Below are positions 3 through 14,520 of a stretch of DNA of 64,000 bases, one piece after another. A program made the translations under genes and the position numbers. The notes beneath the pieces were generated by a model, which saw only the letters and a list, made by a program, of their open reading frames with translations, had not been told where the DNA came from and made no database searches. Within the stretch, counting starts at the first letter, position 1, and each line of letters begins with the position of its first letter. Source of the stretch: Planotetraspora silvatica (GTDB lineage Bacteria; Actinomycetota; Actinomycetes; Streptosporangiales; Streptosporangiaceae); NCBI RefSeq assembly GCF_016863315.1, contig NZ_BOOQ01000040.1, positions 62,001 through 126,000 of the forward strand, in the 5' to 3' direction.

Positions 3-1877
3 ATCGGGGCGGTGACCGATGCCGAGCGGGAGGTCCTGGAGTTGGTGGCGTATGGGGAGCCGTTCGGGGCGGAGTTGCTGGGCCGGTTGGGGTCGGCGCA
101 GGTGCTGGAGGGGCTGGAGGATCGTCAGCTCGTGTCGGTCGTGGTGGAGGGGCGGCGGCTGCAGGTGCGGCTCGCGCATCCTCTGTACGGCCAGGCCGTA
201 CGGGCCAGGTGTGGGACGTTGCGGACACGGCGGGTGTTGTTGCGGCTGGCCGAGGCGGTGGAGGCGGCGGGGTTGCGGCGGCGTGAGGACGCGTTGCGGG
301 TGGCGTTGTGGCGGCTGGACAGTGGGACGGCGGCTGATCCGCGTCTGTTGCTGGAGGCCTGTCGGGTGGCGCGGCTCGCGCGTGATCTGGGGTTGGCCGA
401 GCGGTTGGCGCGGGCGGCGTCGGCGGCGGGTGGCGGAGCCGAGGCCGACCTTCATCTGTCGCGGATTCTGCACTACATGGACCGGTATGAGGAGGCGGAG
501 GAGGTGCTTCAGGGGGTGCGGTTGGCTGACGACCTCCAGCGGATGGAGTACGTCGCGGCCCGGTCGTTCAATCTGTACTGGGGTCTCGGGCGGGAGGGTG
601 AGGCGCGGGCTCTGGCCGATGAGGTGGGTGCGGGCATGTCGGAGCCCGTCTACCGGCAGGGTATGGATGTCCTGCGGGCGGTGATGGATTCGTTCGCCGG
701 GGATCTGGTCGCGGCGGAGGCGGGGCTGGCGCGGGTGGTGGCGCTGGGGCCGTTGCCGGAGGAGGGTGCTCGGTCGTTGACGCCGTTGCGGGTGAGTGTC
801 TGTGCCTTCGACGGGCGGGCCGTTCAGGCTCTGGAGCTCGTCGAAGGGAACTCTTCTGAGGCCTTTCCGAGTTATCAGGCGGCGTTGCTCGAGTATGGGG
901 TGGTGGCCGCGTTGCTGGTCGGTGATCTGCGGGCGGCTGAACGGTATTCGGCGGCGGGGCTCCGGTTGGCGGAGGAGTTCGGCGCGTGGAACCGGGCGTT
1001 GGTGGGGTTCGGTGTCGACCGCGCGCGGGTGTGCCGGTTGCGTGGTGAGTCGGATGAGGCGCTGCGTCTGTGCCGGGAGGCGGCGGCGAGGTTGCCGCGG
1101 CGCAGCGTGTACGCGGGCGGGTGTCTGGGTGAGTTGGCCCATGTGCTGGCGATGCGGGGGGACGCCGCGGCGGCGGGGGACGCGTTGCGGGCCGCCGCGG
1201 AGATGACGGTGTCGCAGGGTCATTCTGTGGTGTTCCCTGTGCGGCTTGCCCGTACGTGGGTTCTCGCTGTGGGGGGTGATCTCGCGGCGGCCGTCAGGAA
1301 CGGGGTGGAGACGGCCGGTGAGGCGGCGTCTCGGGGGTTGCGGGCCTACGAGGTGACCGCGTGGCATGACCTTGTACGGCTGGGTGCGGCTCATTTGGCG
1401 GAGTCGCGTCTGGCTCGGCTGGCGGGCGAGGTCGAGGGTCCTTTGGTCGGGTTGTTGTCCCGGCATGCCACGGCGTGCGTGTCGAAGGACGGGGTGGGTC
1501 TGGACGCGTTGTCGGCCGAGTTCGCGGCGCTGGAGTTGCGTGTGCACGCGGCGGAGGCGGCTGCTCAGGCGGCGGTCGTCCACGATGGGGAGGGGAATGT
1601 GCGGGCGGCTCAGGCGTCGAGGACGAGGGCGTGGTCGCTGGCGCGTGACTGTCCGGGGGTGCGGACTCCGGCGTTGGTGCGTCTGGTGCTTCCCGAGTTG
1701 ACCGCGCGGCAGCGTGAGGTGGCGGCGCTGGCCGCTGAGGGGTTGACCAACCGGCAGATCGCCGATCGGCTGGTGTTGTCGATCCGTACGGTGGCGAACC
1801 ATCTCGGGGCGGTGTATGAGCGGCTCGGTGTGGGTGACCGGGTGGCTCTGGGCGAGATTCTGAGCCGCCTCGACTGA
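3..1877 (+). CDS. LuxR-family (LAL-type) transcriptional regulator, 5' partial
   Basis: The reading frame is open through the left window edge, so the gene is cut at its 5' end; the GTG at 12 is only an internal codon or arbitrary start. The visible 620 or so residues are mostly Ala/Leu/Arg-rich helical repeats typical of the TPR-like sensory part of large LuxR regulators. A LuxR HTH follows at the extreme C-terminus (LTARQREVAALAAEGLTNRQ, then IADRLVLSIRTVANHL and VYERLGVGDR). No Walker A is visible; if the protein is a full LAL regulator its ATPase domain lies upstream of the window. It is convergent with the small minus-strand gene at 1994-2398 and shares no operon with the hydrogenase genes. 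Its effector and targets are unknown. Confidence 0.85.
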   Translation: MGAVTDAEREVLELVAYGEPFGAELLGRLGSAQVLEGLEDRQLVSVVVEGRRLQVRLAHPLYGQAVRARCGTLRTRRVLLRLAEAVEAAGLRRREDALRVALWRLDSGTAADPRLLLEACRVARLARDLGLAERLARAASAAGGGAEADLHLSRILHYMDRYEEAEEVLQGVRLADDLQRMEYVAARSFNLYWGLGREGEARALADEVGAGMSEPVYRQGMDVLRAVMDSFAGDLVAAEAGLARVVALGPLPEEGARSLTPLRVSVCAFDGRAVQALELVEGNSSEAFPSYQAALLEYGVVAALLVGDLRAAERYSAAGLRLAEEFGAWNRALVGFGVDRARVCRLRGESDEALRLCREAAARLPRRSVYAGGCLGELAHVLAMRGDAAAAGDALRAAAEMTVSQGHSVVFPVRLARTWVLAVGGDLAAAVRNGVETAGEAASRGLRAYEVTAWHDLVRLGAAHLAESRLARLAGEVEGPLVGLLSRHATACVSKDGVGLDALSAEFAALELRVHAAEAAAQAAVVHDGEGNVRAAQASRTRAWSLARDCPGVRTPALVRLVLPELTARQREVAALAAEGLTNRQIADRLVLSIRTVANHLGAVYERLGVGDRVALGEILSRLD

Positions 1878-1993
1878 GCCGCTCGACGGGTCACGGCTTC
1901 GCTTTGGAGACCTGGTCCAGGAGCTTCGGCTCCCTCCGGTCCAGATCGGCTGGGCGACGGGAGGGCGGTCTGGGCTGCCCGGGCCGGTTGGGC

Positions 1994-2398
1994 TCAGCCT
2001 GCTTGGTCGCCGGGAGGGGAACCTGGGCTCTTGTCCTCGACGAGATGGGGCCGTCCGACGCCCGTTCCGTGTCCCACGGGGGTCTTTCCGTGCGGCCGGC
2101 CGGTCTTGTCGTGGGTGCCGGTCGGGTGGTGGGCTGATTCCTTCTTGTGGGCGATGTCCTCGGCGCGGGTGGTGGTGCTGACGCCGACGCCGAGGGGTGA
2201 GGAGGCGGTGACGTCGGTGGACGGGACGCCGTGGCGTTCGGTGGCGCCGACTTCGCGTCCGGGTCCCTGGTCGGCGGAGGGCTTGCGGAAGGCGCGGTCG
2301 CCCGCTCGGACGACCTCTTCGCTGGCCTTGCCGACGTCGGGTGAGAATCCGTGCTGGTGTTTGCCCTCGAACCGGCCGGGCTTGGTGGTTTTGCTCAT
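1994..2398 (-). CDS. Small hydrophilic protein of unknown function at the end of the hydrogenase operon
   Basis: This 134-aa product is very polar, with many Lys, His, Gly, Asp and Thr residues, no membrane segment and few hydrophobic residues, so it is probably disordered. It begins MSKTTKPGRFEGKHQHGFSP. A GGGGGAG ribosome-binding site lies about 6 nt before the ATG. It follows hypE by 26 nt on the same strand, so it is probably the last gene of the hydrogenase transcript, though it could have its own promoter. I do not recognise a named family. Its composition resembles stress-related hydrophilic proteins, which is only an impression. Confidence 0.6.
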   Translation of the reverse strand: MSKTTKPGRFEGKHQHGFSPDVGKASEEVVRAGDRAFRKPSADQGPGREVGATERHGVPSTDVTASSPLGVGVSTTTRAEDIAHKKESAHHPTGTHDKTGRPHGKTPVGHGTGVGRPHLVEDKSPGSPPGDQAG

Positions 2399-2424
2399 GT
2401 CCGACTCCCCCGGGTCGGCGGATC

Positions 2425-3501
2425 TCAGCAGATCCGCGGTAGCGGGTCACCGACCAGCAGGTCGACGATGCGGGTTCCGCCGAATGCGGTTTTCAGCAGG
2501 ACGAGGCCGGGCGGGTCGTCGTTGACCCGGCCGACGACGGCGGCTTCGTGGCCGAGCGGGTGCGAGTGCAGCGCGGTGAGCGCCGTCTCGGCGGACGCCT
2601 GGGACACGATCGCGACCATCCGGCCTTCGCAGGCGACGTACAGCGGGTCGATGCCTAGGAGTTCACATGCCCCGCGAACGTCAGGACGAACCGGAATTAT
2701 GTCCTCATTCACGACAATTGCCGCTTTGGATGCCTCGGCGATCTCGTTGAGGACGGTGGCCACTCCCCCGCGGGTGGCGTCGCGCAGGCAGCGGACCTCG
2801 CCGTCGTCGCAGGCGTCCAGCAGTCGCGCGGTGAGCTCGTTGAGCGGCGCGGTGTCGGAGGTGAGGTCGGCCTGGATGTCGAGCTCTCCCCTGGCCAGCA
2901 TGATCGTGATGCCGTGTTCGCCGATGGGCCCGGACACGATGACCGCGTCGCCGGGCCGGGCGGCGGCGGCGCTCAGCCGGGTCGGCCGGTCGAGCGTGCC
3001 GACGCCCGCGGTGACGACGTAGCAGCCGTCGGCCTTCCCCCTCTCGACGACCTTGGTGTCGCCGGTGACGATCTGCACGCCCGCCGCCTGCGCCGCCGTG
3101 GCCATGGACGCGGCGATGCGCCGCAGGTGGGCGATGGGGAAGCCTTCCTCGAGGATGAAGCCGGCCGACAGGTATCGGGGCCGGGCTCCGCACATGGCGA
3201 GGTCGTTGACGGTGCCGTTGACGGCCAGGTCGCCGATGTCGCCGCCGGGGAAGAACAGCGGGGTGACGACGAACGAGTCGGTCGTGAAGGCCATCTCGTC
3301 GATGACCGCGCCGTCCTCCAGCGGTTCGAGGAGGGGGTTGCGGAAGGCCTCGAGGAACACCCCTTCGATCAGGGTGTGGGTCGCCTTGCCGCCCGCTCCG
3401 TGGGCGAGGGTGATGTACTCCTCGCGCACGCGGGCCTTGCGGCGGCGGGCCCGCTCGATGCGTTCGAGGACCTGCTCCTCCAGGCCGGTGTCTCCTGTCA
3501 C
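2425..3501 (-). CDS. hypE: Hydrogenase maturation protein HypE (carbamoyl dehydratase)
   Basis: HypE converts the carbamoyl group received from HypF into the cyanide ligand of the [NiFe] centre and hands it to the HypC-HypD complex. The 358-aa protein has the AIRS/PurM-like fold features: ITLAHGAGGKATHTLIEG near residue 30, GDIGDLAVNGTVNDLAMCGA near residue 85, and GDTKVVE. It ends in the diagnostic PRIC tail, whose terminal Cys carries the thiocarbamate/thiocyanate. It has an N-terminal extension of about 28 charged residues before the usual start region. Its ATG overlaps the hypD stop (ATGA), so the two are translationally coupled. HypF, its partner, is not encoded in the window. Confidence 0.97.
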   Translation of the reverse strand: MTGDTGLEEQVLERIERARRRKARVREEYITLAHGAGGKATHTLIEGVFLEAFRNPLLEPLEDGAVIDEMAFTTDSFVVTPLFFPGGDIGDLAVNGTVNDLAMCGARPRYLSAGFILEEGFPIAHLRRIAASMATAAQAAGVQIVTGDTKVVERGKADGCYVVTAGVGTLDRPTRLSAAAARPGDAVIVSGPIGEHGITIMLARGELDIQADLTSDTAPLNELTARLLDACDDGEVRCLRDATRGGVATVLNEIAEASKAAIVVNEDIIPVRPDVRGACELLGIDPLYVACEGRMVAIVSQASAETALTALHSHPLGHEAAVVGRVNDDPPGLVLLKTAFGGTRIVDLLVGDPLPRIC

Positions 3502-4625
3502 TGGCGGGTCGCCTCCTTGACGCGCTCACGGGAGAAGCGCCCGAAGTTGTAGTAGGCGGCGCATGCTCCTTCGGAGGAGACCATGCAGGTGCCGATCGGC
3601 GTCTCCGGCGTGCAGGCGGTGCCGAAGACTTTGCACTCCCAGGGTTTGAGCACTCCCTTGAGCACCTCGCCGCACTGGCAGGAGGTGGGGTCGGCGACGC
3701 GGCCGCCGGGGATCTGGAAGATCCGTTCCGCGTCGTAGCGGGCGTATTTGGCGCTGACCCTGAGCGCGGACTGGGAGATGAATCCGAGGCCGCGCCATTC
3801 GAAGTGGGGCCGCAACTCCATGACCTCGTTGATGGCGGCCAGGGCCTTGGGGTTGCCGTCCCAGGGCACGACGCGGGCGTACTGGTTCTCCACTTCGCAC
3901 CGGCGCTGCGCGAGTTGGGTGAGGATCTGGTGGACCGACTGCAGGACGTCGAGCGGTTCGAACCCGGCCACGACGATGGGCTTGCCGTAGTCGCGGGCGA
4001 TGAACCGGTACGGCCGGCAGCCGATGACGGTGGAGACGTGGCCGGGGCCGATGAAGGCGTCCAGGCGCAGGTCGGGCGAGTCGAGGATGGCCTTGATGGC
4101 CGGGATGATCGTGACGTGGTTGCAGAAGACCGAGAAGTTGTCGACGCCGTCGGCCTTGGCCCGCAGGACGGTCATGGCGGTCGACGGTGCGGTCGTCTCG
4201 AAGCCGATGGCCATGAAGACGACGCGTTTGGACGGGTTCTGCTTGGCGATCTTCAGTGCGTCGAGCGGTGAGTAGACCATGCGGATGTCGGCGCCGCGTG
4301 CCTTGGCGTCGAGGAACGAGCCCTTGCCGCCGGGGACGCGCATCATGTCGCCGAACGACGTCATGATGACGTCGGGCTGCGCGGCGATGTGGATGGCGTC
4401 GTCGACCCGTCCCATCGGGATGACGCAGACGGGGCATCCGGGTCCGTGGACGAGCGTGACCGCTTCCGGCAGGTAGTCCTCGATGCCGTGCTTGTAGATC
4501 GTGTGGGTGTGGCCGCCGCAGACCTCCATGAACTTGTAGGCGCGGCCGGGTTCGCACAGCGCGGTGATCCGGGCGGCCAGTGCTCTGGCCGTGTCGGCGT
4601 CGCGATATTCGTCGACGAAGCGCAT
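3498..4625 (-). CDS. hypD: Hydrogenase maturation protein HypD
   Basis: HypD is the Fe-S scaffold on which the Fe(CN)2CO unit is assembled together with HypC. The 375-aa protein has normal family length and carries the hallmark cysteine motifs: EVCGGHTHT near residue 36, GPGCPVCVIP near residue 65, GFETTAPST, GPGHVSTVIG, and the C-terminal 4Fe-4S ligands in PTSCQCGEVLKG, WECKVFGTAC and GTCMVSSEGAC. It starts 7 nt downstream of the hypC stop and overlaps hypE by four bases. All expected Cys residues appear present, so it should be functional. Confidence 0.97.
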   Translation of the reverse strand: MRFVDEYRDADTARALAARITALCEPGRAYKFMEVCGGHTHTIYKHGIEDYLPEAVTLVHGPGCPVCVIPMGRVDDAIHIAAQPDVIMTSFGDMMRVPGGKGSFLDAKARGADIRMVYSPLDALKIAKQNPSKRVVFMAIGFETTAPSTAMTVLRAKADGVDNFSVFCNHVTIIPAIKAILDSPDLRLDAFIGPGHVSTVIGCRPYRFIARDYGKPIVVAGFEPLDVLQSVHQILTQLAQRRCEVENQYARVVPWDGNPKALAAINEVMELRPHFEWRGLGFISQSALRVSAKYARYDAERIFQIPGGRVADPTSCQCGEVLKGVLKPWECKVFGTACTPETPIGTCMVSSEGACAAYYNFGRFSRERVKEATRQ

Positions 4626-4632
4626 TCAGGTG

Positions 4633-4911
4633 TCACCCCTGTTCGATCATGGATTCTCGGAGCGCCGCGATCTCGTCGTCGTAGGCCTGGCCGATGCTCT
4701 CGAGGAAGTCGAGAGCGGCCTTGGCCTCGGTCTCGTCGATCTTGGACAGGGCGAAGCCGACGTGGATGAGGATCCAGTCGCCGGGCGCGACGGTCTCGTC
4801 CTCGAGCAGGCCGATGTTGATCGCGCGCCGTACGCCGCTGACGGCGACCATGGCGAGGTCGGGACGGTCATTCAGGATTTCCACGATCTCGCCGGGAATT
4901 CCCAGGCACAT
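4633..4911 (-). CDS. hypC: Hydrogenase maturation chaperone HypC
   Basis: HypC carries the Fe(CN)2CO unit with HypD to the large-subunit precursor. The frame opens upstream at 4932, but the start chosen is 4911 because the mature chaperone must begin MCLGIPG, with Cys2 as the essential ligand residue. The product is 92 aa, with the OB-fold core (VSGVRRAINIG, PGDWILIHVGFAL) and a C-terminal helix. Its first 44 bases lie inside the 3' end of hypA in another frame, an unusually long overlap. A second, diverged HypC-like protein is encoded at 13347-13721. Confidence 0.95.
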   Translation of the reverse strand: MCLGIPGEIVEILNDRPDLAMVAVSGVRRAINIGLLEDETVAPGDWILIHVGFALSKIDETEAKAALDFLESIGQAYDDEIAALRESMIEQG

Positions 4912-5251
4912 GGGTGGCCTCCGCCATCTCAATGGATTCGAGGATGAGGTCGTCGCCGCCCTCGGTGTCGATGTCCGCGCCGCCGCAGCCCGGGCACGTG
5001 ACGAACGGGTCGTGTGAGGTCGTGGTCTGTCCGCAGGACCGGCAGGTCAGCCGGGCCGGGACGATGACCAGGTCCACGCGGGCGCCCTCGGCGGGCGATC
5101 CCTCGGCGACCATGGCGAACGCCTGGTTGATCGCGGGCTCGGTGATGCGCAGCAGGGCTCCGGCGCGTACGCGTGCCTGCCGGACGCGGCGGCCGGCGGC
5201 GCGTTGCTCGACCGCGGAGAGGATGGCTTCGGCGATTCCGAACTCGTGCAT
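4868..5251 (-). CDS. hypA: Hydrogenase nickel-insertion protein HypA
   Basis: HypA delivers Ni to the large-subunit active site, normally with the GTPase HypB. The 127-aa protein starts MHEFGIAEAIL, giving the conserved N-terminal Met-His-Glu nickel site. It has a zinc-ribbon with CRSCG near residue 71 and CPGCGG near residue 87. After the usual end of the family it runs on for about 20 residues (THVPGNSRRDRGNPE), and this tail is encoded across the start of hypC. No HypB gene is present in the window. Confidence 0.95.
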   Translation of the reverse strand: MHEFGIAEAILSAVEQRAAGRRVRQARVRAGALLRITEPAINQAFAMVAEGSPAEGARVDLVIVPARLTCRSCGQTTTSHDPFVTCPGCGGADIDTEGGDDLILESIEMAEATHVPGNSRRDRGNPE

Positions 5252-5279
5252 GTCGTGCCTTCCTGGTCGGCGAGGGGTG

Positions 5280-5384
5280 TCACATCTTGCGGATCTCCAT
5301 GTAGCGCCTCAGGTCGGGCATCGCCCGGTAGACCATGACTCCGACGGTGACGACGGCGGCGCCGATGACGAGTCGTCTCAACAT
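5280..5384 (-). CDS. 34-aa single-pass membrane peptide, DUF6893-like
   Basis: The ORF is very short but well supported. The peptide begins MLRRLVIGAAVVTVGVMVYR and ends DLRRYMEIRKM: two Arg, one hydrophobic segment of about 15 residues, then a charged tail. An AGAGGAG ribosome-binding site precedes the ATG, and the start overlaps the protease stop by 7 nt. It sits between the maturation protease and hypA on the same strand. Similar tiny peptides are known to me as DUF6893 in actinobacterial hydrogenase loci; that assignment is from memory. It may be a membrane anchor or adaptor for the complex, which is speculation. Confidence 0.75.
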   Translation of the reverse strand: MLRRLVIGAAVVTVGVMVYRAMPDLRRYMEIRKM

Positions 5385-5902
5385 GTCCGCTCCTCTTGCT
5401 GGGCAGGTGGGTGGGCGGGTGCGTGGTCGTGGTGGTCCGCGTTGATGTGCTGTTCGATGAGGTCGGCGACGACGGACGCGGCCTTGGGCACGGCGTCGGC
5501 GACGGGCGGGGTGAGCTCCATGCCGGGTGAGGTGTCGGCGGGTTCGCAGCCGACGATCAGCACCTGGCCCGCTCCCCCGCCGAAGGTGCCGGCCAGGGCG
5601 AGCACGGTGTCCGGCGTCAGGGCGTGGGCGTCGACGAAGGCCGCCCCGCGCTGCCGCTCAGGTGGGGGTTCCAGCACGTAGACGGTGCCGGGTGCGCCGC
5701 CGCGGGCGGTGGCGTCGACCAGGATGGTGAGGTCGTAGCCGCCGCTGGTGAGCTCGTAGGCGAGGTGGATGCCGCGGATGCCGAAGTCGGCGACCCGCGC
5801 CTGTTCGGGCAGGTCGACGTCGGCCAGGTGCCTGGCGACGGCGACGCCGAACCCGTCGTCGCGCAGGAAGATGTTTCCCACTCCCGCGACCAGGATCTTC
5901 AT
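5378..5902 (-). CDS. [NiFe]-hydrogenase maturation endopeptidase (HyaD/HupD family)
   Basis: This protease removes the C-terminal extension of the hydrogenase large subunit after Ni insertion. The start is the ATG at 5902 (MKILVAGVGNIFLRDDGFG), which overlaps the preceding gene's stop by ATGA; the longer open frame upstream is a shadow. The 174-aa protein has the family's metal-sensing residues: the acidic pair in LRDDGFG near residue 15, Asp in LVDATARGG near residue 60, and His in FVDAHALTPD near residue 90. It has a His/Asp-rich C-terminal tail (HINADHHDHAPAH) that might bind metal. Its likely substrate is the large subunit at 9624-11411. Confidence 0.93.
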   Translation of the reverse strand: MKILVAGVGNIFLRDDGFGVAVARHLADVDLPEQARVADFGIRGIHLAYELTSGGYDLTILVDATARGGAPGTVYVLEPPPERQRGAAFVDAHALTPDTVLALAGTFGGGAGQVLIVGCEPADTSPGMELTPPVADAVPKAASVVADLIEQHINADHHDHAPAHPPAQQEERTC

Positions 5903-7446
5903 GGGTGCGCCTCCTCGTCGCCGAGCGGCTCCACCTCGTCGGGTGCGAAGTAGAGGAAACGCCCTTGGGTTCGTTGCAGGTCGGCGGCCGGGTCGTCGGC
6001 GAGGGTGACCGCCAGGTGACGTGATCCGTCCACGTCGAGGAACACCGCCTCGACATGGGCGACCTTCCCGGTGAGGAACATGTCGTGGGCGTCGGCGCGG
6101 CGTTTGCCGGGATTGAGGCGGACGCGGCTGCCCTTGGCGAGCGGGACTCCGGAGACGGTGACGGTGTCGGTCTCCGGTGAGACGCGCGCGTCGGTGCCGG
6201 GGTCCCACCACGGTTTGCCGGGTGCCGCACCCGCAATGCCCGGGTCCGCGGCATGACCGTTCGTGCGGCCGCCGGCCAGCCCGGGAACACCAGGAACCCC
6301 GGGGGCACCGCCGGGGCCGGAGACACCGGAATCACCGGAGAAGCCGGGGAAGCCCGCCAGGGCCGGACCGCCGGGGCCTGTCGAAGCAGGCATCGTCGTG
6401 GCGGGAGCGGCGGGATGCGACGGCGCGCCGAGGTATCTGATGACGCCGTGCAGCCGCTCGACCAGTTCGGGCGGCAACTCCCGCGCCCTGCGGAGGATCT
6501 CGGCCGCTCGCGGGTCGGTCGCCGCCGCCTCCCGCGTCTCCTCGTCGGTCAGCGTGATCGCCCGCAGGTGGAGCATCTCGTCGATCTCGGTCGAGTCGAA
6601 CATGTCGCCCTGGCTCTCCGGGGCGATGTCCGGGTAGTCGTAGAGGATGATCGGCGAGGACAACATCAGCGAGCGGTCGCCCGGCTCGCCGACCAGGACC
6701 GGCCAGACATGCTGGTTCCTGCAGCCGTCGACGGCGGGACCCGCCCATTCCGGTGGGTCGATCAGGGAGACGAATCCTCCCCGGGTGGTCCCGATGAGCA
6801 GGTGCGCCGCGATCAGCGACCGGCGCAGCGCCTCCTCACGAGGCGCCCCCGGCTCGTCCCAGGAACTCGTGTTCCTCGTCTCGATGTGCAGCTTGACCAG
6901 CCCGTACGGCCCGGCCTGCCGCGCCGCGGAGACGCGGAGCCTGGCGTCGATGGGCTGCTGCTCCGACACCACCCGGCCCAGAGGTTCGCCCGCCGGCGAC
7001 AGGATCGGCTCGGCCGTCCTGCCCCCGGCGACCTGGACCTCGACGGAGTGTTCCTCGGCGAGGAGGTCACGCAGCGGCAGGACGGCCTCCGCCTCACGCT
7101 CGGTCGCGTCGTCGAAGCCGAGGTACACGGTCTCGCCGCTGGTCAGCTCGGGCACGGCCCGGTAGCCGCCGTCGCCGGTCGGCTCCTCGACGGTGCGGGA
7201 TCTGATGTGGAGGAACCGCAGACGCAGATGGACGTCGGCGTCCTCGGCGTCGCCGCCGGCCTCGAGGAGACATTCGGTCACGCTCCTGGACGGCTCGGCG
7301 GTGGCCGGGTAGCCGGCCGGGACGAGCACGCCGAACTGCCAGCGGAGCTGGTTCTTGGCCGCCGAGGCGCGATACGGGTAGAGCAGGTAGCCCTCGTACA
7401 GGACGGCGTCGGCCACCCGCCGGGCGATGTCCATGGGGACGCTCAC
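5899..7446 (-). CDS. Hydrogenase-locus protein of unknown function with collagen-like linker
   Basis: The start chosen is GTG 7446, which overlaps the previous stop as GTGA and gives a 515-aa product beginning MSVPMDIARRVADAVLYEGY; an ATG at 7434 is an alternative. The N-terminal 340 or so residues look globular. A Gly/Pro/Ala-rich linker with collagen-like triplets (GFPGFSGDSGVSGPGGAPG and onward) follows at about residues 350-405. A C-terminal domain of about 100 residues ends DEVEPLGDEEAHP. I see no cofactor motif and no signal peptide. It is embedded between the DUF6084-like gene and the protease with coupled starts on both sides, so a role in assembling or electronically connecting the hydrogenase is likely, but its biochemical function is unknown. 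Confidence 0.8.
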   Translation of the reverse strand: MSVPMDIARRVADAVLYEGYLLYPYRASAAKNQLRWQFGVLVPAGYPATAEPSRSVTECLLEAGGDAEDADVHLRLRFLHIRSRTVEEPTGDGGYRAVPELTSGETVYLGFDDATEREAEAVLPLRDLLAEEHSVEVQVAGGRTAEPILSPAGEPLGRVVSEQQPIDARLRVSAARQAGPYGLVKLHIETRNTSSWDEPGAPREEALRRSLIAAHLLIGTTRGGFVSLIDPPEWAGPAVDGCRNQHVWPVLVGEPGDRSLMLSSPIILYDYPDIAPESQGDMFDSTEIDEMLHLRAITLTDEETREAAATDPRAAEILRRARELPPELVERLHGVIRYLGAPSHPAAPATTMPASTGPGGPALAGFPGFSGDSGVSGPGGAPGVPGVPGLAGGRTNGHAADPGIAGAAPGKPWWDPGTDARVSPETDTVTVSGVPLAKGSRVRLNPGKRRADAHDMFLTGKVAHVEAVFLDVDGSRHLAVTLADDPAADLQRTQGRFLYFAPDEVEPLGDEEAHP

Positions 7447-8087
7447 TTCTGGGCCTCCTTGAGTCCCCGGGCCTCGCCCAGAAGCATGTCGATGGCGTCG
7501 TCCCAGGTGGGAACGGCGTGTTCGGATTTGTAGCGGTGGAGCGCCCGCAGGGTGTCGCGCCGCAGCAGCAGCCAGCCGGAGCCGGGGAAGTAGCGGTCCA
7601 TGAGTTCGCGCCACACCGCGACCGGCAGCCGATGGCGGCTCTCGCAGTGCCAGGGCACCTGCCGTACGGTGAAGCCGCTCTCGGTCCGGACGAACACCGT
7701 GCCGCTGAACAGCAGGATGAGCGGGATCTCGCCGTCGTCGAGCGCGGCGAAGTACTTCCCGGCGGCGACTTCCAGGTCGTAGGTGAACGGCACCTGCAGG
7801 TCGATCTCGGTGGAGCCCTCGAAGCCGGGGACCATGACGGAGACGCCGGCGAGGTGCAGGGGTTTGAGGGTCTCCCCCCAGCGGGACGGCTCTCCGAACA
7901 GGTCGCCGAGCAGCGCGGCTTCGGCGGGGCCGTACCTCCTGCGCTGGGGCTCGATGCGGATCTGGCAGTGCAGCAGGATGGCGTGGACCGGTGAGGGGTC
8001 GGTGATCCGGAGGCGGAAGTCCATGGTGGGCGAGGCCGCGTAGGGCTCCGGCCGTGCGCCCAGGCAGTCGAACCGCGGTTCGCTCAC
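7443..8087 (-). CDS. DUF6084-like hydrogenase-associated protein
   Basis: The start is GTG 8087, overlapping the preceding stop as GTGA, giving 214 aa beginning MSEPRFDCLGARPEPYAASP. The protein looks all-beta at first (MDFRLRITDPSPVHAILLHC, QIRIEPQRRRYG) with a C-terminal helical end. I associate it with DUF6084, a family found beside actinobacterial group 1h hydrogenases; this is from memory. No metal-binding Cys cluster or catalytic motif is evident. Its place between the DUF5947-like protein and the 515-aa protein suggests these three work together on hydrogenase assembly or electron transfer. Confidence 0.8.
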   Translation of the reverse strand: MSEPRFDCLGARPEPYAASPTMDFRLRITDPSPVHAILLHCQIRIEPQRRRYGPAEAALLGDLFGEPSRWGETLKPLHLAGVSVMVPGFEGSTEIDLQVPFTYDLEVAAGKYFAALDDGEIPLILLFSGTVFVRTESGFTVRQVPWHCESRHRLPVAVWRELMDRYFPGSGWLLLRRDTLRALHRYKSEHAVPTWDDAIDMLLGEARGLKEAQK

Positions 8088-8890
8088 GAGCGCCCGCCTC
8101 CCCGGTCGTCGCCGCCCGGTTCGTACGGCACGGCCTGGCCCTGCCGTACGAGTTCGGCGAAGAAGCCGTCGATGGCGGCCCAGGCCTCCTCGCCTCCGCT
8201 GAACCCCTTCCAGTGCAGCCGGACGAGGCCGACCAGTTCGTAGCAGGCGGAGATCGGCACGAGGTGGCAGACGAAGGCTCCCGCGCGGTCGGTGCCGGCG
8301 CCGCGGTCGATGAGCAGCGCCTCGACATCGGGCTCCGCCCCGGGAAGCTCGGGGTTGGCCGCGAGGATCCGCTCCCAGGCCGGGATCGGGAGCAGCGATT
8401 CGGTGGCGCCGGCGGGGCTGGGATAGAACGCGACGGCGTGGCCGAGCGCGGAGTTGTGGAAGAAGAACGCCGTGCGGACCGGGATCTGCAGTTCGTCCCA
8501 GTCGGCGGCCGACATCCGGAACGCCGGGGCGTGCAGGTAGCGGCGCGGCACGGCGCGGTAGCGGCCCTGCGCGGCGGGCGCGAAGAGCAGGTGACAGCCG
8601 GGGCAGGCGCACAGCAGTGCCCTGTCGTCCATGTCGACGACGTGGCCGTGGTCCTGTCCGACGGGTTCGGAGCACAGCTCGCACCGGGTGCCCTCCGCCG
8701 GGCGCCGCGCCGTTCCAGGACCGGCGGCCGGAGACACCGGTGCCGGGTGAGCCTGCTGCTGGGCGCGCTGATGGTCCTGGCGGTCCTGATGGCGGTCCAG
8801 ATGGTGGTTCTGGTGTGGATCCTGGTGCTGGTCCTGGTGGTGGGTTCGCGGCGGCGGCTCACGGAACCGGCGCAGCCCGCTCCCCGTCAC
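8084..8890 (-). CDS. DUF5947-like hydrogenase-associated protein with His/Gln-rich head
   Basis: The 268-aa product begins MTGSGLRRFREPPPRTHH. It continues with an extremely His/Gln/Asp-rich stretch at about residues 16-48 (such as HQDQHQDPHQNHHLDRHQD), then a Cys-containing module with RCELC near residue 69 and LLCACPGCHLLF near residue 92, a likely zinc or Fe-S site. The remaining part (FRMSAADWDELQIPVRTAFF onward) matches my memory of DUF5947. The His-rich head resembles nickel-storage segments seen in some HypB proteins, and HypB itself is missing here. ATGA and GTGA overlaps link it to both neighbours. Nickel binding is inference. Confidence 0.82.
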   Translation of the reverse strand: MTGSGLRRFREPPPRTHHQDQHQDPHQNHHLDRHQDRQDHQRAQQQAHPAPVSPAAGPGTARRPAEGTRCELCSEPVGQDHGHVVDMDDRALLCACPGCHLLFAPAAQGRYRAVPRRYLHAPAFRMSAADWDELQIPVRTAFFFHNSALGHAVAFYPSPAGATESLLPIPAWERILAANPELPGAEPDVEALLIDRGAGTDRAGAFVCHLVPISACYELVGLVRLHWKGFSGGEEAWAAIDGFFAELVRQGQAVPYEPGGDDRGGGRS

Positions 8891-9570
8891 GAGATCTCCT
8901 CCGGCACCGGGCAGGGCCCCGGCGGGCGCCGCTGGATCTGCAGCAGCGGCCGGCCGGCGCCATGTCCGTTCGAGGGTCCGGGCCCGGCGCCGTGGTCATG
9001 ATCGTGACGCCCGGCGCCGCCGTTGATGTCGTCGTCGGGGTCGAGTCCTTCGACGTCGACCCTGGTCACCTCGGGTGCCGCCCGCGTGATGGCCCGTTCG
9101 ATGGCGCCGGTGACGGTCAACCGGGAGGACGGGCAGCCGTGACAGGTTCCTTCGAGCCGCAGCCGCACCACTCCCGAGGGATCGACCCCGACCAGTTCCA
9201 CTCCCCCGTCGTGCAGCCCGAGATGCGGCCGGACCTCCTCCAGCGCGGCCAGCACCCGGTCGGCCGTCCCCAGCGGGTGCAGGTCGTGCACGATGAGCAG
9301 GCCGGAGACGAGGTCGTCGGTGGTGAGCCGGTGCAGGACCTCGGCGGCCTCGGCCCCGGTGACCGTCCGCATGACACGCTCGAGGGCCTCGCCGTACAGG
9401 CCGACGAGGACCCTGACGAGTTCCTCGGCCTTCGACCGCGTGCCATGCGGGCCGAGTTCGGCGAGTTCGGCGATGAGCGCCTCGACCCGGGCCCCCGCCT
9501 CGTGGACGTCCGCCATGGGCCCGTCGGAGGCCGCGCCGGCCCTGGTGTTGTGGTCGCTGGCTTCGGGCAT
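8887..9570 (-). CDS. NifU C-terminal-domain Fe-S protein of the hydrogenase locus
   Basis: The 227-aa protein has a helical N-terminal half (ADVHEAGARVEALIAELAEL). A NifU-C-like domain follows at about residues 105-170, with LEEVRPHLGLHDGGVELVGV and the CxxC motif in EGTCHGCPSS, which in NifU/NfuA proteins binds a shared 4Fe-4S cluster. It ends in a His/Asp/Gly-rich tail (GRHDHDHGAGPG). It may supply clusters to the small subunit or act as an electron carrier. It lies 53 nt downstream of the large-subunit gene and overlaps the DUF5947-like gene by ATGA. Confidence 0.88.
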   Translation of the reverse strand: MPEASDHNTRAGAASDGPMADVHEAGARVEALIAELAELGPHGTRSKAEELVRVLVGLYGEALERVMRTVTGAEAAEVLHRLTTDDLVSGLLIVHDLHPLGTADRVLAALEEVRPHLGLHDGGVELVGVDPSGVVRLRLEGTCHGCPSSRLTVTGAIERAITRAAPEVTRVDVEGLDPDDDINGGAGRHDHDHGAGPGPSNGHGAGRPLLQIQRRPPGPCPVPEEIS

Positions 9571-9623
9571 CTGCCCCGGGTTCCTTTCCGTCAGTCGGTC
9601 GTCAGCCGGTCACCGGGCGCCGG

Positions 9624-11411
9624 TCACGGCGCGGTGAAGGCGTGGGGGCTGTGCAACGTGCGCAGCAGCTTCCCTTCGCCGAGGTACATGTGCACGCCGC
9701 ACGGCAGGCACGGGTCGAAGCTGCGGATGGCGCGCATGATGTCGATGCCCTTGAAGTTCTCCGGGGAGTTCTCCTCGAAGATGGGCGTGTTCTGCACCGC
9801 GTCCTCGTACGGCCCGGGCGTGCCGTAGCTGTCGCGGACGCTGGCGTTCCACGGCGTCGGCGGGTACGGATGGTAGTTGGCGATCTTGCCGTTCCTGATG
9901 ACCATGTGGTGGGACAGGACGCCGCGGACGGCCTCGGTGAACCCGCAGCTGATCGCCTCGTCGGGAACGGTGAACGGCTCCCAGGTCTGCGTGCGGCCCT
10001 GCCGTACCTCGTTGAGGCCCTGCTCGGCGAAGTGGAGCGCGCAGGCCGCGACGTAGGCCTGGAAGTAGGAACGCGCGCGATTGCGTTCGAGGGCGTTGGA
10101 CAGCGGCTCACCCTTGTACGTCGGGATCTTCCACTCGAACGTCTTCTCCGGCTTGGTGGCCGTCCGCGGGAGGTTGATCAGCACGCTGTGCCCGGTGGAC
10201 TTGACGTAACCGATGTCGACGAGCCCGTTGAGCGCCGTCGACCACAGCCGCGCGATGGGTCCGCCGCCGGTGTCGAGGGCGAGCATGTCCTTCCCGTCGA
10301 ACCAGCGGGGTGACATGACCCAGCTGTACTTGTCGGTGAAGTCGCGTTTCTGCGGCCGCGGGATGGTGTGCTGGTTCCACGGATGGCGGATGTCGACGGG
10401 GTTGCCGAGCGGGTCGTGGGTGACGAACGGGTCGGTGGCGCCCACCCAGTCGTCGTAGTAGGAACTGCCGAGCAGGATGCGGATGCCGAGGTTGATGTCG
10501 ACGAGGTCGTTGGTGACCAGCCGTCCGTCGACGATGACGCCCGGCGTGACGAACATCTTCCGGCCCCAGTCGCCCATGTTCTCGTAGGTGAAGTCGCAGT
10601 GGTCGGGGTCGTTCAGGCTTCCCCAGCAGCCGAGCAGCACACGGCGGCGGCCGACGTTCTCGTAGCCGGGCAGCGCGTCGTAGAAGAAGTCGAACAGGTC
10701 GTCGTGCATCGGCACGACCCGCTTCATGAACTCGACGTAGCGCATCAGCCGGGTCATGTAGTCGGTGAACAACTGCACGGTCGCGACCGTGCCGACCCCG
10801 CCCGGGTAGAGGGTGGAGGGATGCACGTGCCTGCCCTCCATCAGGCAGAACATCTCGCGGGTGAGGCGGCTCATCGCCAGCGCCTCGCGGTAGAAGTCCC
10901 CCTCCAGGGGGTTGAGCGAGCGCATGATGTCGGCGATCGTCTTGTAGCCGTGGTCCTCGGCGTGCGGCGCCTCGGTCCGCTCGGCCTTGGCCAGGACGCC
11001 GGGGTTGGTCTCGCGGACCATCTTCTCGCAGTAGTCCACCCCCACCAGGTTCTCCTGGTAGATGTTGTGGTCGAACATGTATTCGGCGGCCTCGCCGCAG
11101 TTGATGATCCATTCGGCGAGGTGCGGCGGGCGTACGCCGTAGGCCATGTTCTGCGCGTAGACCGAGCAGGTGGCGTGGTTGTCGCCGCAGATGCCGCAGA
11201 TCCTGCTGGTGATGAAGTGGGCGTCGCGGGGGTCCTTGCCCTTCATGAAGATGCTGTAGCCGCGGAAGATGGACGAGGTGCTGTAACACTCGGCCACCTG
11301 CCGATTGGCGAAGTCGATCTTGCAGTAGACGCCGAGACTGCCGACGATCCGGGTGATGGGATCCCAGGCCATCTCGACCAGCTCACGGCCTTGCTCCGAT
11401 GAGGTCGTCAT
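9624..11411 (-). CDS. hhyL: Group 1h (actinobacterial) [NiFe]-hydrogenase large subunit
   Basis: This is the catalytic subunit that oxidises H2 at the NiFe(CN)2CO centre. The 595-aa protein carries the N-terminal ligand motif RICGICGDNHA near residue 70 and the C-terminal motif DPCLPCGVH near residue 568. About 23 residues after that motif (MYLGEGKLLRTLHSP onward) would be removed by the protease at 5378-5902. Its length, motif sequence and partner set fit group 1h/5 high-affinity uptake hydrogenases. Only one nucleotide separates its ATG from the stop of the small-subunit gene. All four Cys ligands are present. Confidence 0.96.
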   Translation of the reverse strand: MTTSSEQGRELVEMAWDPITRIVGSLGVYCKIDFANRQVAECYSTSSIFRGYSIFMKGKDPRDAHFITSRICGICGDNHATCSVYAQNMAYGVRPPHLAEWIINCGEAAEYMFDHNIYQENLVGVDYCEKMVRETNPGVLAKAERTEAPHAEDHGYKTIADIMRSLNPLEGDFYREALAMSRLTREMFCLMEGRHVHPSTLYPGGVGTVATVQLFTDYMTRLMRYVEFMKRVVPMHDDLFDFFYDALPGYENVGRRRVLLGCWGSLNDPDHCDFTYENMGDWGRKMFVTPGVIVDGRLVTNDLVDINLGIRILLGSSYYDDWVGATDPFVTHDPLGNPVDIRHPWNQHTIPRPQKRDFTDKYSWVMSPRWFDGKDMLALDTGGGPIARLWSTALNGLVDIGYVKSTGHSVLINLPRTATKPEKTFEWKIPTYKGEPLSNALERNRARSYFQAYVAACALHFAEQGLNEVRQGRTQTWEPFTVPDEAISCGFTEAVRGVLSHHMVIRNGKIANYHPYPPTPWNASVRDSYGTPGPYEDAVQNTPIFEENSPENFKGIDIMRAIRSFDPCLPCGVHMYLGEGKLLRTLHSPHAFTAP

Positions 11412-11412
11412 G

Positions 11413-12489
11413 TCAGCTCCAGGGCGCCTTGTATCCGGTGAGCAGCTCGCGGCCCTTCCTGCGCCACTTCGGCTCTTTGTCGACGGTTCTGAACGTGAAG
11501 CCGCGCAGCGTCCGGATGACCGAGCCGTACGCTTCGCTGATGGTGGAGGAGACGTGCGCGCCGGGCGGCTCGTCCATGAAGGGCATGAACTTGTCCGGGA
11601 AGCCCGGCATGGTGCAGGCGATGCAGATGCCGCCGACGTTGGGGCAGCCGCCGATGCCGTTCATCCAGCCGCGTTTGGGGACGTTGCACTTCACGACCGG
11701 CCCCCAGCAGCCGATCTTGACGAGGCACTCGGGTGTGCCGTACTCGGTGGCGAACTGGCCCTGCTCGTAGTAGCCCGCCCGGTCGCAGCCCTCGTGGACG
11801 GTGGCGGTGAACAGCCAGGTCGGGCGGAGCGCCTGGTCCAGCGGGATCATCGGCGCCTGCCCGGCGAGCTGGTAGAGCAGGTAGAGCACGGTCTCCGACA
11901 GGTTGTCCGGCTGGATGGGGCAGCCGGGCACGTTGACGATGGGCAGGCCGGCCTTCGACCGCCAGTCCCAGCCGAGGTAGTCGGCCACGCCCATGGCACC
12001 GGTCGGGTTGCCCGCCATGGCGTGGATGCCGCCGTAGGTGGCGCACGTGCCCGCGGCGATGATGCCGGTCGCGTTCGGCGCGAGCCGGTCGAGCCATTCG
12101 GGGACCGTCATGGGCTGGCCGGTGTCGGGGTTGTTGCCGAACCCGGTCCAGTAGCCCTCCCGCTTGAGCGACTCGTTGGGGATCGACCCCTCGACGACGA
12201 GGACGAACGGGTCGAGTTCGCCGCGCGCGGCCTTGAAGAACCATTCGATGAAGGCGTCGGCGCCCTGCATCGGGCCGGACTCGTAGTCGATCAGAGGCCA
12301 GTGCACGGCCACCTTGGGCAGCCCGGGGAACACGCCGAGCACGATGTCCTCGATGCTCGGCTGGGTCGCGGCGGTGAGGGCCACGGAATCGCCGTCACAG
12401 CTCAGGCCGGCGTTCATCCAGAGAATGTGGATGACCGGCTCTTCCTGCTTGCGCTGCTTGCTGGTCGCTGACTTCGTCGGCGTTGTCAT
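11413..12489 (-). CDS. hhyS: Group 1h [NiFe]-hydrogenase small subunit
   Basis: This subunit relays electrons from the active site through Fe-S clusters. The start chosen is ATG 12489 (MTTPTKSATSKQRKQEEPVI), preceded by GGGGAGG; the longer frame upstream lacks support. The 358-aa protein has no twin-arginine signal, consistent with the soluble or inward-facing group 1h enzymes. Motifs are LSCDGDSVA near residue 33, GTCATYGGIHA, VPGCPIQPDN, HEGCDRAGYY, CLVKIGCWGP and GGCPNVGGICIACTMPGFPD. The CDGD motif matches the family's unusual proximal cluster, held by three Cys and one Asp, as known from the Ralstonia eutropha actinobacterial-type enzyme. Confidence 0.96.
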   Translation of the reverse strand: MTTPTKSATSKQRKQEEPVIHILWMNAGLSCDGDSVALTAATQPSIEDIVLGVFPGLPKVAVHWPLIDYESGPMQGADAFIEWFFKAARGELDPFVLVVEGSIPNESLKREGYWTGFGNNPDTGQPMTVPEWLDRLAPNATGIIAAGTCATYGGIHAMAGNPTGAMGVADYLGWDWRSKAGLPIVNVPGCPIQPDNLSETVLYLLYQLAGQAPMIPLDQALRPTWLFTATVHEGCDRAGYYEQGQFATEYGTPECLVKIGCWGPVVKCNVPKRGWMNGIGGCPNVGGICIACTMPGFPDKFMPFMDEPPGAHVSSTISEAYGSVIRTLRGFTFRTVDKEPKWRRKGRELLTGYKAPWS

Positions 12490-12628
12490 GACGCCTCCCC
12501 GTCTCGATACCGTGTCGGTGACTGTCGCTGGCTGTGTCTGGCTGTCTAGGGCTTCGGACGCCGTGCCTCGTGCCGGGTTCGTCGCGTGATCTGCGGGTGC
12601 GCCTTCCCCGGTGTGCCGGTCTGCCCGG

Positions 12629-13360
12629 TCACGGTGGGCTGGACGCCGGCGTGGCCGCGGCACAGTCGTGCTCCGCCGCCGGACGGCCGGCCAGGACGTG
12701 CTGGATGACCTCCCACAGCACGTGGTAGACCGTCGTCTGCGTCTCCTGGATGCGGTGCACCGACGACGACGGGACGACGAAGAGGTGGTCGAGCACCCCT
12801 GCTTCGGAAAGTTCGGTGAGCATCCCGCCGTGCCCGCCGGCCAGGCCGACCGTGAGCATGCCCCGGCGTGCCGCCTCCTCGAAGGCCCGGGCCACGTTGG
12901 CCGAGCCCCCGCTGGTGGACAGCCCGAGCGCGACGTCGCCGCGGCGGCCGAGCGCGGCGAGTTGGCGGGCGAAGACCGCGTCGAAGCCCACGTCGTTGGA
13001 CAGTGCCGTGACGACGGCGACGTCGGTGGTCAGCGACAGGGCGGGCAGCGGACGGCCATGGGCGGGACGCAGGAACGCGGTCGCCACCTCCTGGGCGTCG
13101 GTGCTGCTTCCGCCGTTGCCGAACGTGAACATCCGCCCGCCTCCGGCGAAGGCGCCGGCCATCCGCTCGGCGCACACGGCGACGCGGTCGCCGCACAACT
13201 CGGCCATCCGGCGGCGCAGCAGCACGATCTCGGTGGCCTTGCCCTCGGAGGACCGGGTGGCGTCGGCCCAGACCGGGGCCGGGTCGGCGGAGACCTCGTA
13301 GAGGAACGGGTACAGCTCCCGCATCCCCCGGCCGCGTGCCGGGTCCTCAGCGGCACCCAT
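12629..13360 (-). CDS. SIS-domain phosphosugar isomerase-like protein 2 (GmhA-type)
   Basis: The 243-aa protein has a SIS fold of the sedoheptulose-7-phosphate isomerase type: FTFGNGGSSTDAQEVATAFL near residue 78, LGLSTSGGSANVARAFEEA near residue 145, and LFVVPSSSVHRIQETQTTVY near residue 195. It sits between the HypC-like gene, which it overlaps by 14 nt, and the hydrogenase small subunit. An ATG at 13324 is an alternative start. SIS proteins recur beside group 1h hydrogenases, but no one has explained to my knowledge what sugar or ligand they act on there. It is one of two in this operon. Confidence 0.9.
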   Translation of the reverse strand: MGAAEDPARGRGMRELYPFLYEVSADPAPVWADATRSSEGKATEIVLLRRRMAELCGDRVAVCAERMAGAFAGGGRMFTFGNGGSSTDAQEVATAFLRPAHGRPLPALSLTTDVAVVTALSNDVGFDAVFARQLAALGRRGDVALGLSTSGGSANVARAFEEAARRGMLTVGLAGGHGGMLTELSEAGVLDHLFVVPSSSVHRIQETQTTVYHVLWEVIQHVLAGRPAAEHDCAAATPASSPP

Positions 13361-13721
13361 CGTCGTCCACCCTCGTGACGACGGCGATCGCCTCCTTGGC
13401 GTGCACCAGGATGGTGTCGCCCACGGCGGTCTCCACCAGCGCCACGCTGACCTCCTCCGGCTCGCCGTCGCCGGTGTCGACGACCGCCATGTCCCGGTAC
13501 TTCAGGCGCACGACCGTGACCGGTATGGCCTCGTCGGAACACGTGACGCAGCCTCCGGTCGAGTGGCAGTCGTCAGCCGGGCCGCCGAAAGCGTCGTCGG
13601 GGTCGTCAGGGTCGCCGATCTCGCCGAATTCGCCGATGAAGAGGTCGCTCAAGCGGTCGTCCGAGCCGTTATCCGAGCCGTCGCGCGGACGGCCGCCGGG
13701 CTCGCCGGTGGGTTCGTTCAT
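13347..13721 (-). CDS. HypC/HupF-like chaperone with Cys-rich head
   Basis: The start is ATG 13721 (MNEPTGEPGGRPRDGSDNGS), overlapping SIS protein 1 as ATGA. The 124-aa product has an acidic N-terminal half of about 60 residues, then CHSTGGCVTCSDEAIPVTVV. That is followed by the HypC-type beta-barrel core (MAVVDTGDGEPEEVSVALVE, VGDTILVHAKEAIAVV). Unlike classical HypC it does not begin with Met-Cys, so the ligand Cys is internal. It may be a dedicated chaperone for this hydrogenase or for its proposed CO/formyl chemistry; its role is unproven. Confidence 0.85.
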   Translation of the reverse strand: MNEPTGEPGGRPRDGSDNGSDDRLSDLFIGEFGEIGDPDDPDDAFGGPADDCHSTGGCVTCSDEAIPVTVVRLKYRDMAVVDTGDGEPEEVSVALVETAVGDTILVHAKEAIAVVTRVDDDGCR

Positions 13722-14344
13722 GTGAGGGCCTCCCCGCCCTGTTCGAGAAAGACGTGGACCAGTTCCCACAGCAGGTGATAGGTCGTGACGTGGATCTCTT
13801 TGACCACGGCGGGGTCGGTCGAGGCGACGGCTATGACGTGGTCGGCGCGCGTCATGGGTCCGGCACGATCTGCATGGTCCGCACGGTCTGCATGGTGTGC
13901 ACCCGTCAGGGCGACGGTCAGCAGGCCCAGATCACGGGCGGCCGCAAGGCCCTGCCGTACGGCGGAGCATCCGCCGTCCCGGGAGATCCCCAGCGCGATG
14001 TCGCCCGGGTCCGCCCAGTGGCGCACCTGATGGGCGAACACCTCGGCAATCCCGTCGTCGGTGCCGACCGCGGAGACCGTCGCGGCGTCGTTGCTGAGCG
14101 CCATGGCGGGCAACGCCGGTTTGCCCACGATGACGGGGTGCATGAACTCGACGGCGACGTGGGCGGCGTCGGTGCCCGCCCCTCCGCTGCCGAAGACGAT
14201 GAGCTTCCCGCCGCGGCGGAACCGCACGGCCATGTCACGGGCCGTGCGGGTGATCAGCTCCGCGTCGCGCGCCAGAGCGCCGCCGGCGGTGTTCCGGCGG
14301 GCGAAGGCCTCACGTGCGACCTGCTCGAGCGATGCGACGGACAT
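13718..14344 (-). CDS. SIS-domain phosphosugar isomerase-like protein 1
   Basis: First gene of the hydrogenase operon. The start is ATG 14344 (MSVASLEQVAREAFARRNTA), preceded by AAGGAG; the frame upstream to 14512 is non-coding leader. The 208-aa product has SIS motifs: LIVFGSGGAGTDAAHVAVEF near residue 44, LGISRDGGCSAVRQGLAAAR near residue 113, and KEIHVTTYHLLWELVHVFLE near the C-terminus. An internal His/Asp repeat (HHADRADHADRAG, near residue 146) interrupts a loop. It is a diverged paralogue of SIS protein 2, with the usual SGGS loop changed to RDGG, so catalysis may be lost. Confidence 0.88.
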   Translation of the reverse strand: MSVASLEQVAREAFARRNTAGGALARDAELITRTARDMAVRFRRGGKLIVFGSGGAGTDAAHVAVEFMHPVIVGKPALPAMALSNDAATVSAVGTDDGIAEVFAHQVRHWADPGDIALGISRDGGCSAVRQGLAAARDLGLLTVALTGAHHADRADHADRAGPMTRADHVIAVASTDPAVVKEIHVTTYHLLWELVHVFLEQGGEALT

Positions 14345-14520
14345 GTGACGCTCCTTGACGGTAGTCGTCAGGCTACGGTGGGTGTCCGAGGACGAGATAC
14401 CTCGAGCGTCACAACCCCGAGTAAAGCTCTTATCGCGGGCGTAATCCCCTGTCTCCGGCAGGACATCGCGACGCGTGCCACCGGGGCAGCGGGGACGCGG
14501 CAGGACTACCATCCGCCGCT

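Follow-up and report, generated by a model that had tools for sequence, protein, structure and literature searches.

A HypA lineage associated with the absence of HypB at group 1h-type [NiFe]-hydrogenase loci of Planotetraspora silvatica and its relatives

The canonical form of nickel insertion into [NiFe]-hydrogenases, that of E. coli, H. pylori and Thermococcus, employs a pair of proteins, HypA and HypB. HypB-type nucleoside triphosphatases (NTPases) are called essential for this step in a section of a 2025 review (PMC12134894), and in E. coli maturation is abolished once HypA and HypB can no longer make contact, according to the text excerpted from PMC3287977. In Mycobacterium smegmatis, hypA and hypB adjoin the genes of a group 1h enzyme (PMC2799521, in part), the group in which a passage of PMC9561532 places the enzyme of C. 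necator H16. Hydrogenases without HypB have been noted before: not every genome with a hydrogenase of the type found in Nitrosococcus oceani AFC132 carries hypB, in the portion of PMC7285500 that treats it, and the neighbours of HypA and HypB are described as poorly conserved for some clades in an excerpt of PMC12727194. Here we consider a hydrogenase operon that lies, without hypB, in a 64,000-nucleotide stretch of the genome of the soil actinomycete Planotetraspora silvatica (the window; contig NZ_BOOQ01000040.1, positions 62,001 to 126,000), and the distinct form of HypA that it encodes (HypA-II; 4868..5251, minus strand).

Judged by its closeness to the C. necator enzyme, the system is predicted to be a group 1h-type uptake [NiFe]-hydrogenase, intact and provided with its own maturation genes. 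The large subunit, HhyL (9624..11411, minus strand), is 77.3% identical to the large subunit of C. necator H16 pHG1; it has a C-terminal extension, and both cysteine motifs (L1/L2; RICGICGDNH and DPCLPCGVH) are intact. Within the operon are also a NifU-like protein, a DUF5947 protein, a DUF6084 protein, a protein of 511 amino acids (aa) and a protease, an accessory set that we take, in part from the loci compared here, to define group 1h.

HypB absence and the type of HypA

Genome-wide (8.66 Mb in 117 contigs, stated completeness 100%), P. silvatica has no HypB above the profile cut-off (121.2); the best match to the HypB model reaches 69.7 bits. There are only two such matches, both below the cut-off: the best is UreG (272.2 bits on TIGR00101), in a urease gene cluster recognized by eye from translations, and the other is MeaB (318 bits on TIGR00750). 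An earlier note on this stretch had reported hypB and hypF missing from the window, and proposed that they sit elsewhere or are replaced by other proteins of the operon. The absence from the window stands: whole-genome searches place neither gene in or next to it, find no complete hyp set just outside it, and exclude a HypB just beyond its edge. The proposal fared differently for the two genes. HypF does sit elsewhere: a single hypF above the cut-off (749.8 bits; cut-off 466.1) lies intact on contig 21, and loss of HypF is thereby rejected. No other hydrogenase gene was recognized around this solitary gene (L005:8082-10385), which is flanked, as judged by eye, by YceI-family-like and NmrA-like reductase genes. 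HypB is found nowhere in the genome; therefore, for HypB, replacement or bypass is needed. Replacement from within the operon, as the earlier note had envisaged, is unlikely, because SIS1, SIS2, HypC2 and the NifU-like, DUF5947, DUF6084 and 511-aa proteins also occur beside HypB-bearing hydrogenases, and because a P-loop pattern that catches both HypB and UreG is absent from 15 operon proteins, a 34-aa peptide lying outside the test.

The absence extends to relatives. Within the family, 76 of 150 sampled genomes carry this large subunit; HypB is above the cut-off in 12 of these and not in the other 64, seven of which are single-contig assemblies. None of the five genomes of the window's genus has it (the other four, like the window genome, lack it), and of 209 retrieved 1h loci, 26 show a P-loop of the HypB type, each of them belonging to a genome or plasmid that has HypB. 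A HypB that is present but was missed, because it falls in a gap of the assembly or has diverged beyond the reach of the profile, might be suspected in a genome so divided into contigs, but is very improbable: completeness is stated as 100%; the same search found HypB in the 12 relatives and picked up UreG and MeaB far below the cut-off; and the seven single-contig relatives are also without it. As far as tested, the absence of HypB is real, and it extends across a large clade that has a HypA of its own.

Decay of a non-functional operon, HypB being lost in the process, is hardly to be expected either. In two relatives, Actinoallomurus iriomotensis (L173) and Microbispora amethystogenes (L179), HypA-II and other maturation genes stand on retrieved stretches that show no structural genes, as decay might leave them. 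Against this, the reading frames of the window are open and its catalytic motifs intact, the large subunit is 70-99% identical across the family genomes listed, and all 72 genomes that lack HypB but have a 1h-like large subunit (64 of the family and 8 others) keep a HypA.

The trait found to vary in step with HypB is HypA type. In a first set of loci, one branch (100/99) divided the 30 HypA that have HypB on their own stretch from the 38 that lack it there. To avoid dependence on choice of locus, the search for HypA above the Pfam cut-off then took in every one of the 76 family genomes, together with the other 39 genomes of a phylum sample (115 total). Every HypB-positive genome carries a type-I HypA (31/31). 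No HypB-negative genome (n=84) does so: 73 have only HypA-II, counting one (G297) in which the HypA N-terminus before residue 5 is cut off at a contig end, and the other 11, which carry a different hydrogenase, have no HypA above the cut-off. A tree of 126 HypA sequences puts 87 of type II and 39 of type I on opposite sides of one branch (100/99; 200/200 bootstrap trees). Fragments of <60 residues are left out of it, only 13 named loci are in the tree from which it derives, and two truncated or weak rows, L312 (G297) and L325 (G326), are omitted; with these kept, the residue-5 label needed two changes. Three positions separate the two sets fully: position 5 (Gly in type II; Ser, Ala or Asp in type I), position 34 (His, Leu or Gln; Arg, Ser, Ala and one other) and position 43 (never Phe or Tyr; always Phe or Tyr).

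The window protein, with Gly5 and Gln43, has its closest named relatives in Planotetraspora (P. mira, 98%) and passes the Pfam HypA profile (PF01155, 87.5 bits; cut-off 28.9). HypA-II keeps the N-terminal Met-His-Glu (MHE) nickel motif and two CxxC pairs; its structure model has a predicted local distance difference test score (pLDDT) of 90.9, and its 14 PDB matches at E <=0.001 are all HypA, including chains of HypAB and HypA-hydrogenase complexes. On TIGR00100 the window HypA scores 67.3 bits, under the cut-off of 88.1; this score was dropped as a marker of HypA-II because, of five HypB-associated, type-I HypA scored, four likewise fall short. Five HypA-II in four genomes (L148 in G296, L322 and L323 in G337, L324 in G376, L111 in G134) end after the first domain: the Pfam match runs only to ~66-69, and the zinc CxxC domain is missing, a shortening seen in no type-I HypA of the sets.

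Genomes with both HypA types separate them by locus. G329 and G346, with two hydrogenases each, have HypB and a type-I HypA at the other hydrogenase, and a type-II HypA without HypB at the 1h locus. Among 50 named genomes chosen for HypA-II (50 of 73 loci, with many species also in the family sample, by a selection pattern that contains Gly5), 47 have no HypB above the cut-off; in the remaining three HypB stands beside a second, type-I-like HypA with Ser5, as predicted beforehand (3/3). HypB thus adjoins type I in all five genomes that have both. On a large-subunit tree of 99 rows, which omits second 1h copies and those without a classifiable HypA in the genome, HypA type and HypB change together eight times and never apart.

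Several points count against reading from this that HypA-II can do without HypB. When only well-supported branches are counted, the eight joint changes shrink to four independent pairs, too few for significance (p 0.125), and most HypA types were set for a genome as a whole (G329 and G346, typed by locus, were entered as 'type II, no HypB'). HypA-II is a single clade, and the link with HypB therefore rests on few events. Glycine at position 5 is not confined to it: nine Gly5 HypA from outside the 1h family, picked up by the same Gly5-containing pattern, fall on the type-I side of a quick tree with several long branches, the type-II clade staying intact, and three of these nine loci (L216, L222 and L224) carry HypB. 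Gly5 was dropped as the sole marker of HypA-II on account of these nine.

Nickel insertion and candidate NTPases

From this co-occurrence we infer that HypA-II is independent of HypB; it probably constitutes a nickel-insertion module that works without HypB, in place of the pair formed by HypA-I and HypB. If the known roles of the Hyp families hold here, assembly and placement of the Fe(CN)2CO group would fall to HypC1, HypD and HypE together with HypF, the last made from its solitary gene on a different contig. HypA-II would insert nickel next, without HypB, and the protease would finally cleave the large subunit behind its DPCLPCGVH motif. Passages of PMC7055735 and PMC12134894 state that HypA of E. 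coli is able to bind a hydrogenase large subunit in the absence of HypB, and that hypB mutants of E. coli are rescued by extra nickel; a HypB-free route is thus chemically plausible. A bolder and less probable proposal would make HypA-II a self-sufficient insertase that draws nickel from the cellular pool and delivers it to the large subunit without hydrolysing any nucleotide, so that the NTPase step is dispensed with altogether.

A different account keeps the NTPase and borrows it from another pathway: UreG, the nickel GTPase of urease, might load HypA-II in HypB's stead. UreG is present in the window genome and in 60/76 family genomes with this hydrogenase, and the portion of PMC7285500 already cited proposes it for the hypB-less N. 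oceani AFC132. It is, moreover, commoner where HypB is missing, in 54/64 HypB-less genomes versus 6/12 with HypB (Fisher p 0.015, uncorrected for kinship), a figure to be set beside the adverse points listed above. The substitution is nevertheless unlikely: the other 10 of the 64 HypB-less family genomes, among them the single-contig G372, yield no UreG at E 1e-30, and the phylum sample adds six HypB-less 1h genomes with none at E 0.001. A second UreG near hhyL, at three hydrogenase loci, was considered as a HypB substitute and rejected; it is part of a second urease cluster (translations read for two of the three).

The missing NTPase might also belong to another family, a MinD/Mrp/CooC-type ATPase encoded elsewhere acting as HypB, as in Thermococcus. 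Compared with the PDB, the HypA-II profile matches best (62.7 bits) the HypA of HypAB and HyhL complexes, presumably the Thermococcus protein, and certain other hydrogenases, for which neither HypA nor HypB was seen, come with a CooC-like ATPase. The HypB of T. kodakarensis is itself an Mrp/MinD-family ATPase, as stated in part of PMC7055735. We find this doubtful for HypA-II, however. The HypA of that best PDB match is, in the alignment, like HypA-I, with Ala5 and a Phe at the position of 43; an ATPase of the GKGG[AS]GK type stands on only two retrieved HypA-II loci, both from genera other than Planotetraspora (G400 and G378), whole genomes not having been searched for Mrp/COG0523; and no CooC/MinD-type ATPase was found near hydrogenase genes on the retrieved Planotetraspora loci, again short of a whole-genome search. 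The ATPases of G400 (L144:233-1279) and G378 (L295:1729-2700) are MinD/ParA-like proteins of 320-350 aa, 88% between them, near HypF or a second HypA-II, and in no other retrieved locus.

The other hydrogenases just mentioned come from 11 genomes (G073, G078, G108, G111, G125, G135, G179, G215, G232, G250 and G276; L334-L353) that have only a different hydrogenase. Its large subunit is ~39-48% identical to HhyL where matched, with the cysteine motifs intact in most copies. HypF is above the cut-off in 11/11 of these genomes, HypA and HypB in 0/11, and in 10/11 a CooC-like ATPase lies on the retrieved hydrogenase or maturation stretch. One such protein has CooC as its best PDB match (E 9.9e-24); CxC, which we take to be the nickel site of CooC, occurs in only three of them. 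The enzyme possibly belongs to groups 1l/1m; a CooC-type protein is listed for group 1m clusters in the part of PMC9561532 that describes them, whereas no statement that HypA and HypB are lacking was seen. HypB may thus have been lost by more than one route.

The operon and its accessory genes

The operon comprises 16 genes, all on the minus strand, from 14344 (start of SIS1) to 1994 (end of a 134-aa protein); the earlier note's count, and its calls for HypA, C, D and E and the protease, hold up against the profiles. Its description as nearly gapless is slightly generous: eight of the 15 junctions overlap and five have gaps of 1-28 bases, but two are wider, at 53 bases (large subunit/NifU-like) and 139 bases (SIS2/small subunit). 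Two junction values hinge on the choice of start, 13360 or 13324 for SIS2 and 7434 or 7446 for the 511-aa protein. Separate internal promoters were looked for; none of sigma-70-like form was found within 1700-15000, by a scan blind to other promoter types, and terminator-like matches there are at chance level (3 versus 3.3 expected).

The first three genes encode SIS1 (13718..14344; PF13580, 56.5 bits), a phosphoheptose-isomerase-like SIS-domain protein found in 1h loci with and without HypB; HypC2 (13347..13721; PF01455, 39.1 bits), a second HypC-like protein with an N-terminal extension, an internal CVTC and no N-terminal Met-Cys; and SIS2 (12629..13360; PF13580, 65.2 bits), another SIS-domain protein. 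This arrangement, with HypC2 between both SIS genes, recurs at many 1h loci of this hyp lineage; as a guess, the trio might have a part in ligand supply. The small subunit, HhyS (11413..12489), scores 119 bits on TIGR00391, under the cut-off of 179.5, and by tblastn matches the C. necator operon at 68% where the small subunit is encoded there. At three loci (L156:14854-15909, L157:12884-13963, L158:10851-11906) RefSeq names the product 'hydrogenase expression protein HypE'; position and tblastn identify it as HhyS.

Beyond HhyL come the NifU-like-domain protein (8887..9570; PF01106, 72.1 bits), the DUF5947 protein (8084..8890; PF19372, 237 bits), the DUF6084 protein (7443..8087; PF19562, 295.3 bits) and the 511-aa protein (5899..7434), for which profile searches matched no family, and tblastn gave matches in most retrieved 1h loci. 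The protease is a HyaD/HybD-type maturation endopeptidase (5378..5902; TIGR00072, 116.5 bits, above cut-off). Between it and HypA-II lies a 34-codon open reading frame for a putative membrane peptide of 34 aa (5280..5384), hydrophobic and ending in a (P)D(I/L)(K/R)RY motif; it has matches of >22 bits in 130 retrieved loci (a loose threshold, with the loci of one genome unmerged), both with and without HypB. HypC1 (4633..4911; TIGR00074, 80.2 bits, above cut-off), HypD (3498..4625; TIGR00075, 502.9 bits) and HypE (2425..3501; TIGR02124, 438.6 bits) follow. The last gene encodes a 134-aa protein of biased composition (1994..2398) that has no Pfam family; it is matched by tblastn 3' of hypE in Planotetraspora, several Streptosporangium and Microbispora.

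Implications and comparison with described systems

HypB-less hydrogenases themselves are known; the new part would be the tie between HypA type and HypB absence, of which searches of an open-access library, with subscription papers mostly outside it, showed no earlier report. These searches also yielded nothing of use on H2 uptake by Streptosporangiaceae. A widespread HypB-less lineage with its own HypA would make the role of the NTPase testable, with two natural modules serving nearly the same enzyme. If the proposal is right, oxygen-tolerant hydrogenases could be produced in other hosts with a smaller helper set, and a missing hypB would be no ground to rule out hydrogenase activity from genomes. 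Were HypA-II self-sufficient as well, an NTPase step held to be essential would have been dropped in a large group of 1h-type enzymes.

With the canonical HypA/HypB insertion of E. coli, H. pylori and Thermococcus, the system shares the HypA fold, the MHE motif and the two CxxC pairs; it differs in that no HypB was found and in a HypA with Gly5 and without Phe or Tyr at 43. The hydrogenase of N. oceani AFC132, likewise reported (in the part of PMC7285500 cited above) without hypB and with UreG as the proposed stand-in, is another hydrogenase in another phylum. The C. necator H16 pHG1 1h operon (L156) is closer: the NifU-like, DUF5947 and DUF6084 proteins, the unknown protein and the protease are common to both, as are hypF, hypC, SIS, hypD, hypE and hypA. 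In C. necator, however, hypB is directly 3' of a type-I hypA (Ser5), hypF is inside the operon, and one SIS gene is annotated. Streptomyces-type 1h operons (the f3 genomes, and Embleya, L159) have the same structural genes and accessory proteins, but theirs are a HypA-I, HypB, HypF, HypC, HypD and HypE of another lineage, their HypD being ~49% identical to that of the window, and no SIS gene was matched on the retrieved stretches. Much the same hydrogenase is accompanied by one maturation set with HypB and by another, with HypA-II, that probably works without it.

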